Shown here one piece after another: positions 6,693 to 42,827 of a stretch of 64,000 nucleotides of DNA. The stretch covers positions 248,001 through 312,000 of the forward strand of contig NZ_VSLZ01000003.1 in the NCBI RefSeq assembly GCF_010747475.1, written 5' to 3'. The notes under the pieces were generated by a model. The model did no database searches. It saw nothing but the letters and a program-made list of their open reading frames with translations, and had not been told where the DNA came from. The position numbers were made by a program, and so were the translations under genes. Source of the stretch: Halorussus sp. MSC15.2. GTDB taxonomy: Archaea > Halobacteriota > Halobacteria > Halobacteriales > Haladaptataceae. Position 1 is the stretch's first letter. Every line of letters starts with the position of its first letter.

Positions 6693-8392
6693 GTACGTCA
6701 CCGCGACGCGGGAGCCTCGTCGAACTCCTCGCCGGACTCTACCCGTGGCCGGTCGAGACCGGCGACGACCTCGGGCGCGCGCTGGCCTACCTCGACGCCG
6801 GAACCGACGCGGAAACGGCGGTCCGGGCGGGCTACGGGACCGCCGCGCTGGTCGCGTTGCTCGGACTTCTCACGGCCGCAGTCTCGCCCGGAACCGTCCG
6901 CGTGTCGGTGGTGGCCGGGACTGTCGCGCTGGCGGGAGGAGTCGCCTGCGCCGCGCGCCGAGGACCGATTGCGCTCGCGACGGCCCGTCGCACCGCGGCG
7001 CTCGGGGCCGCACCCGCGCTGGTCGCGCGAGCGGTCCTGCGGATGCGCGTCGAACCCGCGACCGAGCGCGCGGCGGCGTTCGCTGCCCGCGGCGAGGGCC
7101 GACTCGCGGAGAGCCTCCGGGGACACGTCCGACGCGCCGCCGGGACGCCGAACTCGGGGTTCGCGGCGTTCGGCGCGGCGTGGGCCGACTGGAACCCGCC
7201 GCTCCGGCGGGCCGCCCTGCTCGTGGAGTCGGCGGCCGACGCCCCGCCGGGCGAGCGGGAGGTCGCGCTGGACCGAGCGATGGACGCGATGCTGGACGGG
7301 ACCCGCGACCGGATGGCCGCGTTCGCCGAGCGGGTCCGGGGACCGACGACCGCGCTCTACGCGTTCGGCGTCCTGCTCCCGCTGGCGCTGGTCGCGGTCC
7401 TCCCGGCGGCGCGCGTGGCGGGCGTCCCGCTCTCGGTTCCGGCGCTGATAGTCCTCTACGACCTGCTCTTGCCTACCGGGCTGGTCGGCGCGGGCGCGTG
7501 GTTGCTCGTGCGCAGACCAGCCGCGTTCCCGCCGCCGGAGGTGTCGCGCGACCACCCGAACGTGCCCGACCGGCGCTGGACGACCGCCACGGCGGTCACA
7601 GGCGCGGCACTGGTCGCAGTCACCGCTACCGCACCGTTTCCGGACTGGACGCGCTGGCCCGCGGTCGTCGGCGGAGCGGTCGGCGCGGGGCTGGTGGTGC
7701 GGTTCCGGCCGGTCAAACTCGTCCGGGACGACGCCCGCGCGGTGGAGGCGAACCTGACCGACGCGCTCTACCTCGTCGGTCGACGGGTGAGCGACGGCGC
7801 GGCCGTCGAATCGGCGGTCGAAGACGCCGCGCCAGAGGTCGCCGGGCGCACGGGCGAGATGTTGGCCGAGACCGCGGGCGTCCAGCGACGACTCCGGGTC
7901 GGCGTCCGCGAGGCGTTCCTCGGCGAACACGGCGCGCTCGCCGACGTCCCGAGTCCGCAGGCCCGGAGCGTGGCCGCCCTGCTGGCCATCGCGGCGCGCG
8001 AGGGGCGTCCCGCCGGTCGCGCGGTCGTCTCGATGGCCGACCACGTTGACGACCTCCAGCGCGTCGAGCGCGAGGCCCGGCGCGAACTCGCCAGCGTGAC
8101 CGGGACGCTCCGCAACACGGCGGCCGTCTTCGGTCCGTTGGTCGGCGGTGCCACGGTGGCGCTCGCCGACGGGATGGCCGCCGGTCGATTGGGGGAACCG
8201 CTCCCGACCGCGGCGCTCGGTCTCGCGGTCGGCGGGTACGTCCTGCTGATGGCCGCGATTCTGACCGCGCTGGCGACCGGACTGGAGCACGGGTTCGACC
8301 GCGCGCTGGTGGGCTATCGAGTCGGTCTCGCGCTCCTCGCGGCGGTTGGTTCGTTCTTCGCCGGATTCGCCGGGGCCGGGTTCGCGGCGTGA
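6689..8392 (+). CDS. Type II secretion system F / TadC-family membrane protein
   Basis: This is the integral membrane platform on which the secretion ATPase acts. The GTG start overlaps the ATPase stop (GTGA). The 567-residue protein has hydrophobic segments near residues 50-95 (two helices), 220-275 (two helices), around 300-340, and a cluster at the C terminus (about 475-567). Two cytoplasmic helical regions lie between them (about 110-215 and 350-470). This duplicated F-domain topology is that of archaeal TadC/PilC proteins. It is the last gene of the cluster; 136 bases separate it from nreA, which has its own promoter. Confidence 0.88.
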   Translation: MSTSPRRGSLVELLAGLYPWPVETGDDLGRALAYLDAGTDAETAVRAGYGTAALVALLGLLTAAVSPGTVRVSVVAGTVALAGGVACAARRGPIALATARRTAALGAAPALVARAVLRMRVEPATERAAAFAARGEGRLAESLRGHVRRAAGTPNSGFAAFGAAWADWNPPLRRAALLVESAADAPPGEREVALDRAMDAMLDGTRDRMAAFAERVRGPTTALYAFGVLLPLALVAVLPAARVAGVPLSVPALIVLYDLLLPTGLVGAGAWLLVRRPAAFPPPEVSRDHPNVPDRRWTTATAVTGAALVAVTATAPFPDWTRWPAVVGGAVGAGLVVRFRPVKLVRDDARAVEANLTDALYLVGRRVSDGAAVESAVEDAAPEVAGRTGEMLAETAGVQRRLRVGVREAFLGEHGALADVPSPQARSVAALLAIAAREGRPAGRAVVSMADHVDDLQRVEREARRELASVTGTLRNTAAVFGPLVGGATVALADGMAAGRLGEPLPTAALGLAVGGYVLLMAAILTALATGLEHGFDRALVGYRVGLALLAAVGSFFAGFAGAGFAA

Positions 8393-39361: not shown

Positions 39362-39451
39362 AGTGCATATGCGTGACACTCACCTCCGGGGACTTAACCT
39401 TTTGGCCGTGGGCGATATCTGCTATCCGTGTCCCTAGCTAACCGACTTCAG

Positions 39452-40312
39452 TCATCGAATTTCTACACTTCTAAATCGCAGGTATCCGACGAATAGCGGA
39501 ACGACGAGCCAGAGGAAGAGCATTCCGAAGCCGAACATGTACTCCGGAGAGTCGACCAGATACACCCAGACCTGAGTCGTGGATTTGGACCGGAGCAGTT
39601 CCGATAGTAGGGCGCGACTGTACTGATAGCTCCTCACCGGATTGAGACGCTGAACGTAGAGGTACCAAGTTGGCCCCTGCGCCGTCGCAATCGGTCGGAG
39701 TCCGCTCGTTGAGACCGTTCCTGTGAACAAATACGCTGCAATCGGTAGGACATGATGTTGCCAGAAGAAGTGCGTCACTGCGTACAATCCGAATACTATC
39801 GCAACCGCCCGAAATCGGGACATGACCATTGCCGAGATTCCGACTGCGATTCCAGTCCATACCAGCCCGTAGATTAACAACAGAATCGCGTGGACGAAGA
39901 GTTCGAACGCCGCAACTCCGCCGTACAACGCTATGGACTCTGCGACTAAAATGGTAATTGTCGTCACGACTACGACGGTGAGAACGGCTGACCGCCCCAG
40001 AAACTTACCAATCAGCACTTCGTGATGAGTCGTGGGTAAACCGAGCAGAAAACGGATACTCCCGGACTCACGTTCCCCGACGACCGCTTTGTATCCCGTT
40101 AGAAGTCCAACGACGGGCAGAAAGCGATATAGATGTAACGGAATGTTCTCGGCTACGACGCCTAACGATGCTGGCGAAGCGGGACCCACGTACATGTTTA
40201 GCGTGGACGAGGTCCCCATCAAAATCAACGCGACAACGGTTCCCCACAGCATCCGTGAACGGATTGCTGAGGTGAGTTCTTTTCTTACGATAGTGGCTAT
40301 CCGTGCTCGCAT
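39452..40312 (-). CDS. ABC-2 exporter permease next to the halocin-like gene
   Basis: The 286-residue protein has six hydrophobic segments and the ABC-2 coupling segment ERESGSIRFLLGLP. The N terminus (IATIVRKELTSAIRSRMLWG) is the usual amphipathic helix. It lies four bases after the ATPase. Codon choice is visibly less GC-rich than in neighbouring housekeeping genes (many A/T third positions), as in the whole island to about 42000. Given the divergent cysteine-rich precursor it probably serves export of, or immunity to, that peptide. It is a paralogue of the permease at 16702. Confidence 0.87.
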   Translation of the reverse strand: MRARIATIVRKELTSAIRSRMLWGTVVALILMGTSSTLNMYVGPASPASLGVVAENIPLHLYRFLPVVGLLTGYKAVVGERESGSIRFLLGLPTTHHEVLIGKFLGRSAVLTVVVVTTITILVAESIALYGGVAAFELFVHAILLLIYGLVWTGIAVGISAMVMSRFRAVAIVFGLYAVTHFFWQHHVLPIAAYLFTGTVSTSGLRPIATAQGPTWYLYVQRLNPVRSYQYSRALLSELLRSKSTTQVWVYLVDSPEYMFGFGMLFLWLVVPLFVGYLRFRSVEIR

Positions 40313-40316
40313 ACAC

Positions 40317-41228
40317 TCATCCCTTCATCTCGTACTGCGTGGTAGTTGCCTCGACGAACAAGTCCTCTAACGAGGCCCTTTTCGTCGTAAAATCGGAGAT
40401 AACCACGTCTCTTTTGGTCAGTTCCGTCAGGACTCTTCTTTTCGCATCTCGGCCCCGGTACCGTATCCGTAGCGTGGACTCCGTGTCGGAAACGCCGGTC
40501 ACGTTCTCGATTCGTTCCAGTTTACTACCATCCGGAACGGGGTCTGCTTCGATGAGGAGCGTATCGCTCGTCCGTTCGTGTAAACCTTCAATTGTATCTA
40601 AATTGATAAGACTACCGCAGTTTATAATTCCAATGCGGTCACACAATGTCTCTACCTCCGACAAGTTGTGACTAGAGAAAACGACCGTCGCACCACGGTT
40701 TCGCTCCTTGCGAACAATCTCGCGTAATTCGCGAACGCCGTGAGGGTCGAAACCGGTCGACGGTTCGTCGAGGACGAGCAAGTTTGGACTACCGACGAGA
40801 GAGATGCCGAGGGCGAGTCGCTGGCGCATACCCCTAGAGTATCCCGCGACTTTTCTCTCGGTGGCACTCGTCAAACCGACGCGTTCCAAAACGTCCGACG
40901 GGTTGGCGTCTACACCCTTTATACCGGCCGCGAACTCGATGTGTTCTCGCGCCGTGAGGCGGTCGTACAATCCGTATCCTTCCGGAACGATACCGAGTTG
41001 CTTGCGGACAGCCTGCGGGTCCGTCCAAGGGTCCAACCCGAAGACGGATGCCGTGCCCTCCGTCGGTTCGAGAAATCCCAAAATCAGATTCAGCGTCGTG
41101 GACTTTCCCGCGCCGTTCGGCCCGAGAAGGCCGAATATTTCCTCTCGTTCGATAGAGAGAGTAAGGTCTTCGACCGCAGTTACCTCTCCGAACTCTTTCG
41201 TTAAACCGCGTGTCTCAACGGCGGCCAT
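40317..41228 (-). CDS. ABC transporter ATP-binding protein next to the halocin-like gene
   Basis: The 303-residue ATPase has Walker A LGPNGAGKSTT, an ABC signature YSRGMRQRLALG, Walker B LLVLDEPSTGFDP (a Phe replaces the usual Leu of the D-loop region) and the switch His in SSHNLSE. It resembles the ATPase at 17532 over its full length. It is divergent from the Cys-rich precursor across a 99-base AT-rich spacer with a promoter for each side, so both are likely to be controlled together. The role in peptide immunity or export is inferred from this arrangement. Confidence 0.9.
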   Translation of the reverse strand: MAAVETRGLTKEFGEVTAVEDLTLSIEREEIFGLLGPNGAGKSTTLNLILGFLEPTEGTASVFGLDPWTDPQAVRKQLGIVPEGYGLYDRLTAREHIEFAAGIKGVDANPSDVLERVGLTSATERKVAGYSRGMRQRLALGISLVGSPNLLVLDEPSTGFDPHGVRELREIVRKERNRGATVVFSSHNLSEVETLCDRIGIINCGSLINLDTIEGLHERTSDTLLIEADPVPDGSKLERIENVTGVSDTESTLRIRYRGRDAKRRVLTELTKRDVVISDFTTKRASLEDLFVEATTTQYEMKG

Positions 41229-41253
41229 GCGAGTTGAAAGTCTGACTCACCTC

Positions 41254-41262
41254 GAATTAATG
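41254..41262 (-). promoter_or_regulatory. TATA box of the exporter ATPase
   Basis: CATTAATTC on the minus strand lies 26-34 bases before the ATG at 41228. Confidence 0.5.
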
Positions 41263-41298
41263 TTTCCATTCTAATCTTATCTTATACTCAATAAATTA

Positions 41299-41305
41299 CT
41301 TATAG
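41299..41305 (+). promoter_or_regulatory. TATA box of the Cys-rich precursor
   Basis: CTTATAG, inside an unusually AT-rich stretch (41265-41327), lies 23-29 bases before ATG 41328. It is back to back with the exporter promoter. Confidence 0.55.
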
Positions 41306-41327
41306 TTAGATTGATTACTATTACGGT

Positions 41328-41963
41328 ATGTCGGAGGAAAGTGACAAGGGAAGCGCATTGACCACGAACCGACGCGAGTTCCTGAAACGGGCTACGGTCA
41401 GCGGCGCGTTAGGCGTTACTGGAATCACAAGCAGTGCTACCATCGTCGCGGGAAACGAAGGCCCGAAAACGGACGAAAAACCGCGCCAACAGGAGGCGAA
41501 GGGCGTCTTCACTACGTACGCAGACGACCTGCTCTCATTGTTAGCGTCGGAGGGCATCTTGGACAACGGGACGATTACGGAACTTCCACTTGACGAACCG
41601 GTGGACTACGAGACTGTAGCCTCGAAGTCCGGTGAAGGAGTCAACTTCGCAACGTGGAGTGGCGTTCGTGCCGACGAGTATCGCATCGTCAAACAATTAG
41701 ACGACGGCGTTCTCTCCGTTGCGGTTCAACCGGCTAAAAACCATGCTTACGCATTCTACGAACCGGATACGACCGAAGAGACGTACCTTATCAAATCGGA
41801 CGTCGGAGTGACGAACGTCGAACGAGAGGCCTGCTACAAGGACTGCGGGTGCGTCTCCCAATGCGGCAATTCCGTCTGGGCGGACAGACGCTGTTGTATC
41901 CAAGAACCGTGCGGTTCCAGTTGTGCGTGGAACGTTTGGTGCGACTGTTGTAACGGGTGTTGA
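41328..41963 (+). CDS. Tat-exported precursor with a 12-cysteine C-terminal peptide (halocin-like)
   Basis: The 211-residue protein starts with a Tat signal (NRREFLKR at 14-21, twin Arg R15-R16, then a hydrophobic core to about residue 40). A central domain of about 125 residues (42-167) is acidic and predicted alpha/beta. The last 43 residues hold 12 cysteines: 169, 173, 175, 179, 189, 190, 195, 199, 205, 207, 208 and 211. This layout (Tat signal, proregion, Cys-rich end) matches the halocin C8 type of archaeal bacteriocin, whose proregion acts as immunity protein. The peptide sequence itself is not one I recognise. No separate immunity gene is seen; the divergent ABC exporter may add protection. 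Halocin activity is an inference. Confidence 0.8.
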   Translation: MSEESDKGSALTTNRREFLKRATVSGALGVTGITSSATIVAGNEGPKTDEKPRQQEAKGVFTTYADDLLSLLASEGILDNGTITELPLDEPVDYETVASKSGEGVNFATWSGVRADEYRIVKQLDDGVLSVAVQPAKNHAYAFYEPDTTEETYLIKSDVGVTNVEREACYKDCGCVSQCGNSVWADRRCCIQEPCGSSCAWNVWCDCCNGC

Positions 41964-42033
41964 ACACTGGAACGTCGATAGTTCCATTGGGCGCAGTCTC
42001 CCCGGAACGGTAACGATGGGGGTTCCATCCGCC

Positions 42034-42156
42034 TCAACGAAGTACGTGCTGTAGGAACTCGTCCCCCGGTCCGGCGTACACCCCACCGTCCTCTCCAGTG
42101 GCGTAACCGGCGAAGGCGGCGTGATAGTCGCTGAGGTATAGCCTAAGAGTGGGTTT
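42034..42156 (-). other. Possible gene remnant between precursor and phosphoesterase
   Basis: On the minus strand a short stretch reads like real protein (LYLSDYHAAFAGYATGEDGG, then VYAGPG) and, one frame off after a GGGGG run, SYSTYFVEADGTPIVTVPGR. No start codon with a promoter is present and the phosphoesterase promoter overlaps it. It may be a scrap left when the island was inserted. Low confidence. Confidence 0.2.
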
Positions 42157-42158: not shown

Positions 42159-42185
42159 TCTTTCCGACGGCCGAAGCCGGGAGTA

Positions 42186-42827
42186 ATGCTCGTTCTCGGA
42201 GACGCCCACGCCGACGACCCCGACAATCGGCGCGCGCTGTTCGCCGCCTATCGGGACGCCGACGCGGAGGTGGCATTGCAGTTGGGCGACCTACTCTACT
42301 ACGACCTGCCGATTCCCACGTACTTCATCGCCGGTAACAACGAGGACTTCGACACCATCGACGCGCTTCGACACGGCCGCCTCGACAGTTCCAACGTCAC
42401 GAACGCCTTCCTGCTGTCGGACGAAGCGGTCGAAATCGACGGCCTCCGAATCGCCGGTCTCTGCGGTAACTACGCGCCGACGCAGTTCGAGCGCCCCCGT
42501 CCGAACCTGCAGGGCGAGCGCAGGCGACACTTCGTCCGGGGGGACGTGGAGCGTCTGAAGACCGTCGAGGATGTGGACGTGCTGTTGACCCACGAAGCGC
42601 CCCACGGCCTGCCGGTCGCGGAGTCCTACGAGGTCGGTTGCGAACACGTGGACGGACTGCTGGAGGCGCTCGAACCCGACCTGTGTCTGGTCGGCCACCA
42701 CCACGAACACGCCGAGACCACCTACGGTGACACCCGCGTCGTGAGCGTGGCCTCCGTCGAGAAACGTTACTATCGACTCGACCCCGAGACGCTGGAGTTG
42801 ACCTCGTACCCGACGCCGTCGGCGTAA
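42186..42827 (+). CDS. Calcineurin-like metallophosphoesterase (copy 1)
   Basis: The 213-residue enzyme has the metal-ligand motifs GDAHAD (D6, H8), LGDLLYYD, GNNED, THEAPHG and GHHHEH. It would hydrolyse a phosphoester in the cytoplasm; the substrate is unknown. A second copy of exactly the same length lies inverted at 48639, with a 29-residue identical run around VRGDVERLKTVEDVDVLL. At the nucleotide level 60 consecutive bases (42512-42571) are identical to the other copy. This gene borders the AT-richer island. Confidence 0.9.
   Translation: MLVLGDAHADDPDNRRALFAAYRDADAEVALQLGDLLYYDLPIPTYFIAGNNEDFDTIDALRHGRLDSSNVTNAFLLSDEAVEIDGLRIAGLCGNYAPTQFERPRPNLQGERRRHFVRGDVERLKTVEDVDVLLTHEAPHGLPVAESYEVGCEHVDGLLEALEPDLCLVGHHHEHAETTYGDTRVVSVASVEKRYYRLDPETLELTSYPTPSA

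Follow-up and report, generated by a model that had tools for sequence, protein, structure and literature searches.

The window, the whole stretch of 64,000 nucleotides from Halorussus sp. MSC15.2 analysed here (contig NZ_VSLZ01000003.1, positions 248,001–312,000), contains a 211-residue precursor with a twin-arginine translocation (Tat) signal, a cysteine-free proregion and a 43-residue tail holding 12 cysteines. Its gene lies back to back with an ATP-binding cassette (ABC) ATPase/permease pair in an insert flanked by dapA and a phosphoesterase-like gene. The explanation favoured here, to which we assign a probability of roughly 0.55 as a whole, is that horizontal transfer brought the locus in as a cassette of foreign composition at a variable site, encoding a Tat-exported, disulfide-rich peptide that would be released against competitors, with the ABC pair as optional self-protection. 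As judged from the sequences, the precursor family goes beyond chance: it comprises 78 homologues, the closest of which keeps 12 of 12 tail cysteines, and cysteine number is even throughout.

The features of the locus are as follows.

39423–42145, no strand assigned: inserted cassette, delimited by blastn against 15 congeneric loci with junctions inspected.
39452–40312, minus strand: ABC-2 permease, PF12679 above cutoff.
40317–41228, minus strand: DrrA-like ABC ATPase, PF00005 and PF13732 above cutoff.
41229–41327, no strand assigned: divergent promoter spacer of 99 bp with 30% GC, from sequence composition.
41328–41963, plus strand: precursor gene, 211 residues, one of the 78-member family.
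41328–41462, plus strand: Tat signal region, TIGR01409 above cutoff, with the arginine pair at residues 15–16.
41463–41828, plus strand: cysteine-free proregion with helix–helix–beta order, predicted by AlphaFold and confident at about residues 51–165.
41832–41960, plus strand: 43-residue tail, C169 to C211, with 12 cysteines, from cysteine count and orthologue alignment.

The N terminus of the precursor matches the NCBIfam Tat signal model TIGR01409 at 21.8 bits (cutoff 16.7), and R15 and R16 are invariant in all 78 family members. Signal cleavage is probable near IVA-G (residues 41–42, located by eye), where no lipobox cysteine is present; an AxA-like cleavage motif occurs in 72 of the 78 members. 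The proregion is predicted to fold into two helices followed by a β-sheet, with AlphaFold confidence (predicted local distance difference test, pLDDT) mostly 80–98, and a fold comparison of this prediction with the PDB returned no match. All 12 cysteines are confined to residues 169–211, in agreement with the arrangement first described for the precursor, and all 12 are shared with the closest orthologue (locus L041). The tail is predicted at low confidence, with a pLDDT below about 50. Scans of the window precursor against NCBIfam, Pfam, PHROGs and PADLOC gave no curated family beyond the Tat signal, the same scans across family members gave only Tat or isolated weak matches, and PDB sequence matches were limited to Tat signals or were insignificant.

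The mature part contains an even number of cysteines in each of the 78 members, ranging from 6 to 22; with a simple cut at residue 110 the number is even in 77 of 78, and the proregions hold four cysteines in total over the 78 sequences. Neither metal ligation nor the presence of free thiols would demand such parity, whereas complete disulfide bonding predicts it, and the mature cysteines are probably all paired. The tails themselves are hypervariable, forming 37 clusters at 50% identity and showing 68 cysteine-spacing patterns among 78 sequences. Between distant members, non-cysteine tail residues are 22.3% alike, versus 21.8% after shuffling, which is background, and proregions lie slightly above theirs (26.5% versus 22.8%). 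Several pairs of members retain 50–64% of the proregion and little of the tail; with gaps counted and shared cysteines excluded, tandem paralogues at L129 are 62% identical in the proregion and 9% in the tail, and L068 and L075 are 64% and 22% identical, respectively. Among orthologous tails every cysteine is retained, and the non-synonymous substitution rate (dN) is below the synonymous rate (dS) wherever dS could be estimated, which argues that tails are functional and are maintained once formed.

The most cysteine-rich tails, with 20–22 cysteines, occur at L055:7024-7683 and L092:1486-2178. The dipeptide GW stands at or near the end of many tails from outside the window’s genus, perhaps as a second motif; the examples are L094, L095, L101, L128, L138, L160 and L162.

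The distribution of the family is patchy. Members were found in 19 of 99 relatives searched. Of 391 genomes sampled from the class, 65 matched a profile built from 40 members; these represent 28 of 86 genera, and the weakest of the matches are possibly to Tat signals only. A stricter, phylum-wide draw gave matches in 4 of 295 genomes, all in the same order. The window’s genome has seven members. Public records annotate relatives as hypothetical protein, and a search of a collection of named genomes found no relative. Two or three precursors with differing tails stand in tandem at L128:7170-9499, L129:6772-8304 and L060:6475-8219. At L078:7489-8078 (C1) the signal part of a member lies in a frame other than that of its remainder, unlike in its orthologues at L058 and L059, with which it shares the same gene order.

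The insertion at this specific site is directly visible in comparison with 15 congeners, none of which has the cassette there. Homology to the congeners ends at 39398–39422 (from 39329 already in more distant ones) and restarts at 42146–42156 in most of the 15 loci and at 42183–42186 in a few distant ones. In 10 of the 15, only about 270–760 bases separate dapA from the phosphoesterase-like gene; in the other five (G004, G010, G008, G002 and G015) the same site is occupied by a different insert with other genes. Both flanking proteins of G004 are 98% identical to those of the window, yet the cassette is not present. Composition sets the locus apart as well: its GC content is 53–54%, versus about 65–71% in the flanks, and GC content at third codon positions (GC3) is 0.60 for the permease, 0.62 for the ATPase and 0.65 for the precursor, versus 0.79–0.90 in all eight flanking genes measured (0.85–0.90 in six of them). 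The less GC-rich codon use from which horizontal transfer had been proposed is borne out, and a recent acquisition is supported. The nearest precursor, ATPase and permease stand together, in the same divergent layout, at L041 in another genus of the same family, with the ATPase 55% and the permease 59% identical to those of the window; no flanking genes common to the two loci were seen.

The alternative insert was located at L185:4870-7280 and at the same site in L186–L189. Its genes at L185, of about 366, 202 and 159 residues, gave no significant Pfam or PADLOC match; the largest contains a YRGLS stretch, by eye reminiscent of ADP-ribosyltransferases.

The back-to-back ABC-2 pair of the preliminary description is confirmed, and is DrrAB-like in that PF00005, PF13732 and PF12679 all score above the Pfam gathering scores. 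The best NCBIfam scores of the ATPase include the drrA model (243.5 versus 312.45) and the lantibiotic-protection model TIGR03740 (188.7 versus 309.75), both under the curated cutoffs. The ATPase thus shares PF00005 and PF13732 with the DrrA and lantibiotic-protection ABC-2 transporters, which serve in self-protection. Two AT-rich promoters had been placed in the spacer between the divergent genes; the AT-richness stands, and on the precursor side a TATA-like TTATAG was recognized by eye at 41300–41305, 28 to 23 bases upstream of the precursor ATG, a distance that fits a leaderless haloarchaeal transcript.

The association of such a pair with the family exceeds chance, yet it is optional. Long flanking sequence was available for 68 members, and seven of these sites (the window, L041, L077, L126, L134, L135 and L157) have, within 3.5 kb, an ATPase with 39% identity or more to that of the window; at L134 and L135 it comes directly after the precursor in the same orientation, and two ABC pairs are present at L077. 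The window’s genome encodes ten ATPases at least 45% identical over nearly the full length, and four of these are no more than about 2.3 to 3 kb away from a family member (three of the seven members are involved), versus approximately 0.1 expected near members by chance, as estimated from the same counts. Because the pair is optional, self-protection fits it better than obligatory export, and of the two roles first suggested for it, export or resistance, the second would be the better suited.

Under the favoured explanation, the precursor would be exported by Tat and its tail would form disulfides only, with full pairing. The conserved proregion would probably aid folding of the tail, maintain latency, or protect the producer in a general way. 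An extracellular protease would then release the tail outside the cell, where it would act against competing strains, and the ABC-2 pair, where present, would guard the producer, pumping the peptide out or keeping it from entering. The preliminary description had suggested that the proregion may give immunity. Similar proregions carry unrelated tails, which disfavours strictly tail-specific immunity; a role in folding or latency, or broad immunity, appears to suit the proregion better. It is nonetheless noteworthy that the helix–helix–beta order predicted for the proregion is also that of the immunity part of halocin C8.

Several results weigh against this explanation. None of the 78 members has a known activity, and no conserved cleavage site was found in the family alignment. 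Most members have neither an ABC pair nor a dedicated neighbour gene, and no modification enzyme or immunity gene recurs beside them. Homology in sequence to known halocins is not established.

The lack of a conserved cleavage site would be expected if the precursor were instead a structural, adhesive or surface protein that stays uncleaved outside the cell and carries its tail as a variable, disulfide-stabilized recognition knob; hypervariable ends are generally known in surface recognition proteins. No anchor was seen, the signal has the AxA-like motif in place of a lipobox cysteine, the proregion is predicted to be a small independent domain, and the ABC-2 pair would be left unexplained, so that this alternative is regarded as unlikely. 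A secreted signalling peptide (a pheromone or kin-recognition signal) in place of a toxin would account for products that are small, secreted, polymorphic and several per genome; the absence of any sensor or regulator recurring beside members, and a content of 6–22 cysteines, unusual for a signal, make it distinctly improbable. Much the same small chance is given to an inhibitory role directed at proteases or at other secreted factors, protection from predators or viruses included. Many cystine-rich mini-proteins act as inhibitors, and subtilisins are among the proteins that haloarchaea secrete, as with the halolysins (PMC12893001), but the precursor matched no defence-system model and no known inhibitor family.

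A metallothionein-type metal-binding protein is very improbable: it would suit the CxC and CC motifs and the tails with up to 22 cysteines, but it gives no reason for even numbers in 78 of 78 members, histidine makes up about 1.5% of tail residues, and Tat export leads to an oxidizing environment. A precursor whose peptide is modified by enzymes, as in lanthipeptides, would suit a genus rich in lanthipeptide clusters (PMC12144867), but is scarcely conceivable: no LanM (class II) or other synthetase is found in the cassette or recurs beside members, the leader motif of archaeal LanA, Kx(Y/F)(D/E)xx(F/Y) (PMC10105419), is absent from the precursor by eye, and a large folded proregion is atypical. 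The findings named at the outset as contrary to a peptide cassette included core-genome conservation, normal codon usage and metal-binding homologues; the locus lies outside the core genome, its codon use is abnormal, and its cysteine parity argues against a metal-binding protein. Overall, the preliminary interpretation is supported in part, and the family has the look of an archaeocin-like set of disulfide-rich peptides.

To our knowledge, sequences are available for very few antimicrobial peptides of archaea. Conotoxin superfamilies combine a conserved signal and pro part with a hypervariable, cysteine-held mature part in multigene families. The likeness to the window family is one of analogy between unrelated systems: export is by Sec there and by Tat here, and the present family is archaeal. 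With slightly less than even confidence, we suggest that haloarchaea possess a large, unnamed arsenal of this conotoxin-like kind, in which a conserved Tat-exported carrier brings out ever-new payloads with 3 to 11 disulfides, encoded in cassettes that have spread to variable sites and of which some include a dedicated ABC pump for self-protection. If so, dozens of unrelated disulfide-bonded payloads on one carrier would provide a handle on archaeal competition and a supply of salt-stable mini-proteins. The strictly even cysteine counts pose a further question, the site at which archaea make this many disulfide bonds, because the protein is exported by Tat and Tat normally transports folded proteins.

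A Tat-exported haloarchaeal proprotein with a cysteine-rich end is already a known kind, represented by halocin C8, where a single gene supplies both the antimicrobial activity and the immunity. The family, its unmatched carrier domain, the even parity and the hypervariability appear to be undescribed as far as the searches show; the family may already be listed under a different name, for example in the survey of antimicrobial peptides and polymorphic toxins in archaea by Makarova and colleagues from 2019 (cited in PMC10105419). HalC8 is exported by Tat and undergoes extracellular maturation (PMC11509114), and a HalI paper among the references of PMC11509114 names an N-terminal helix–loop–helix in its title as essential for immunity. 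In Haloferax mediterranei, a secreted serine protease can activate a secreted precursor (PMC12893001). This HmHapP/HFX_0892 system offers, in extracellular protease activation, the mechanism proposed for the window family; it differs in that the active part is an N-terminal helical fragment, and the text of the paper makes no mention of cysteine (PMC12893001).

The halocin C8 layout recognized in the window precursor (Tat signal, proregion and cysteine-rich C-terminal part, as in halC8/HalI) holds for the Tat signal and as an arrangement of parts; for the proregion, the predicted order of elements is the same, but sequence comparison gives no significant relation. The tails differ: that of halocin C8 is helical, with about 76 residues and 10 cysteines at fixed positions, whereas that of the window has 43 residues and 12 cysteines. 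The cysteine pattern, initially noted as unfamiliar, indeed falls outside TIGR04449, the model of the halocin C8 mature domain, which matched none of the 40 members scanned. For both proregions AlphaFold predicts two helices and then five or six strands, five in the case of C8.

For comparison, C8-type genes were gathered from the same genomes. Initial profile matches to halocin C8 genes were largely due to the shared Tat signal and became insignificant after its removal. Profile comparison of the signal-free proregions of the family and C8 gave a probability of 0.4–4%. When the proregion profile was searched against 8508 open reading frames and their reversals, four C8-type sequences, representing a few close types, ranked near the top of the background (E of 0.014 and worse), and the reverse search returned nothing. 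The two proregions may share an ancestor; by the tests made, the family resembles halocins in layout and appears to lie outside the C8 family. A true halocin C8 relative is encoded in the window’s genome at L127 (G000:C4:184000-200000), at about 7505-8312, with a family member some 14 kb away; the Tat signal of this C8 relative is apparently in a different frame, possibly owing to a frameshift or a sequencing error.
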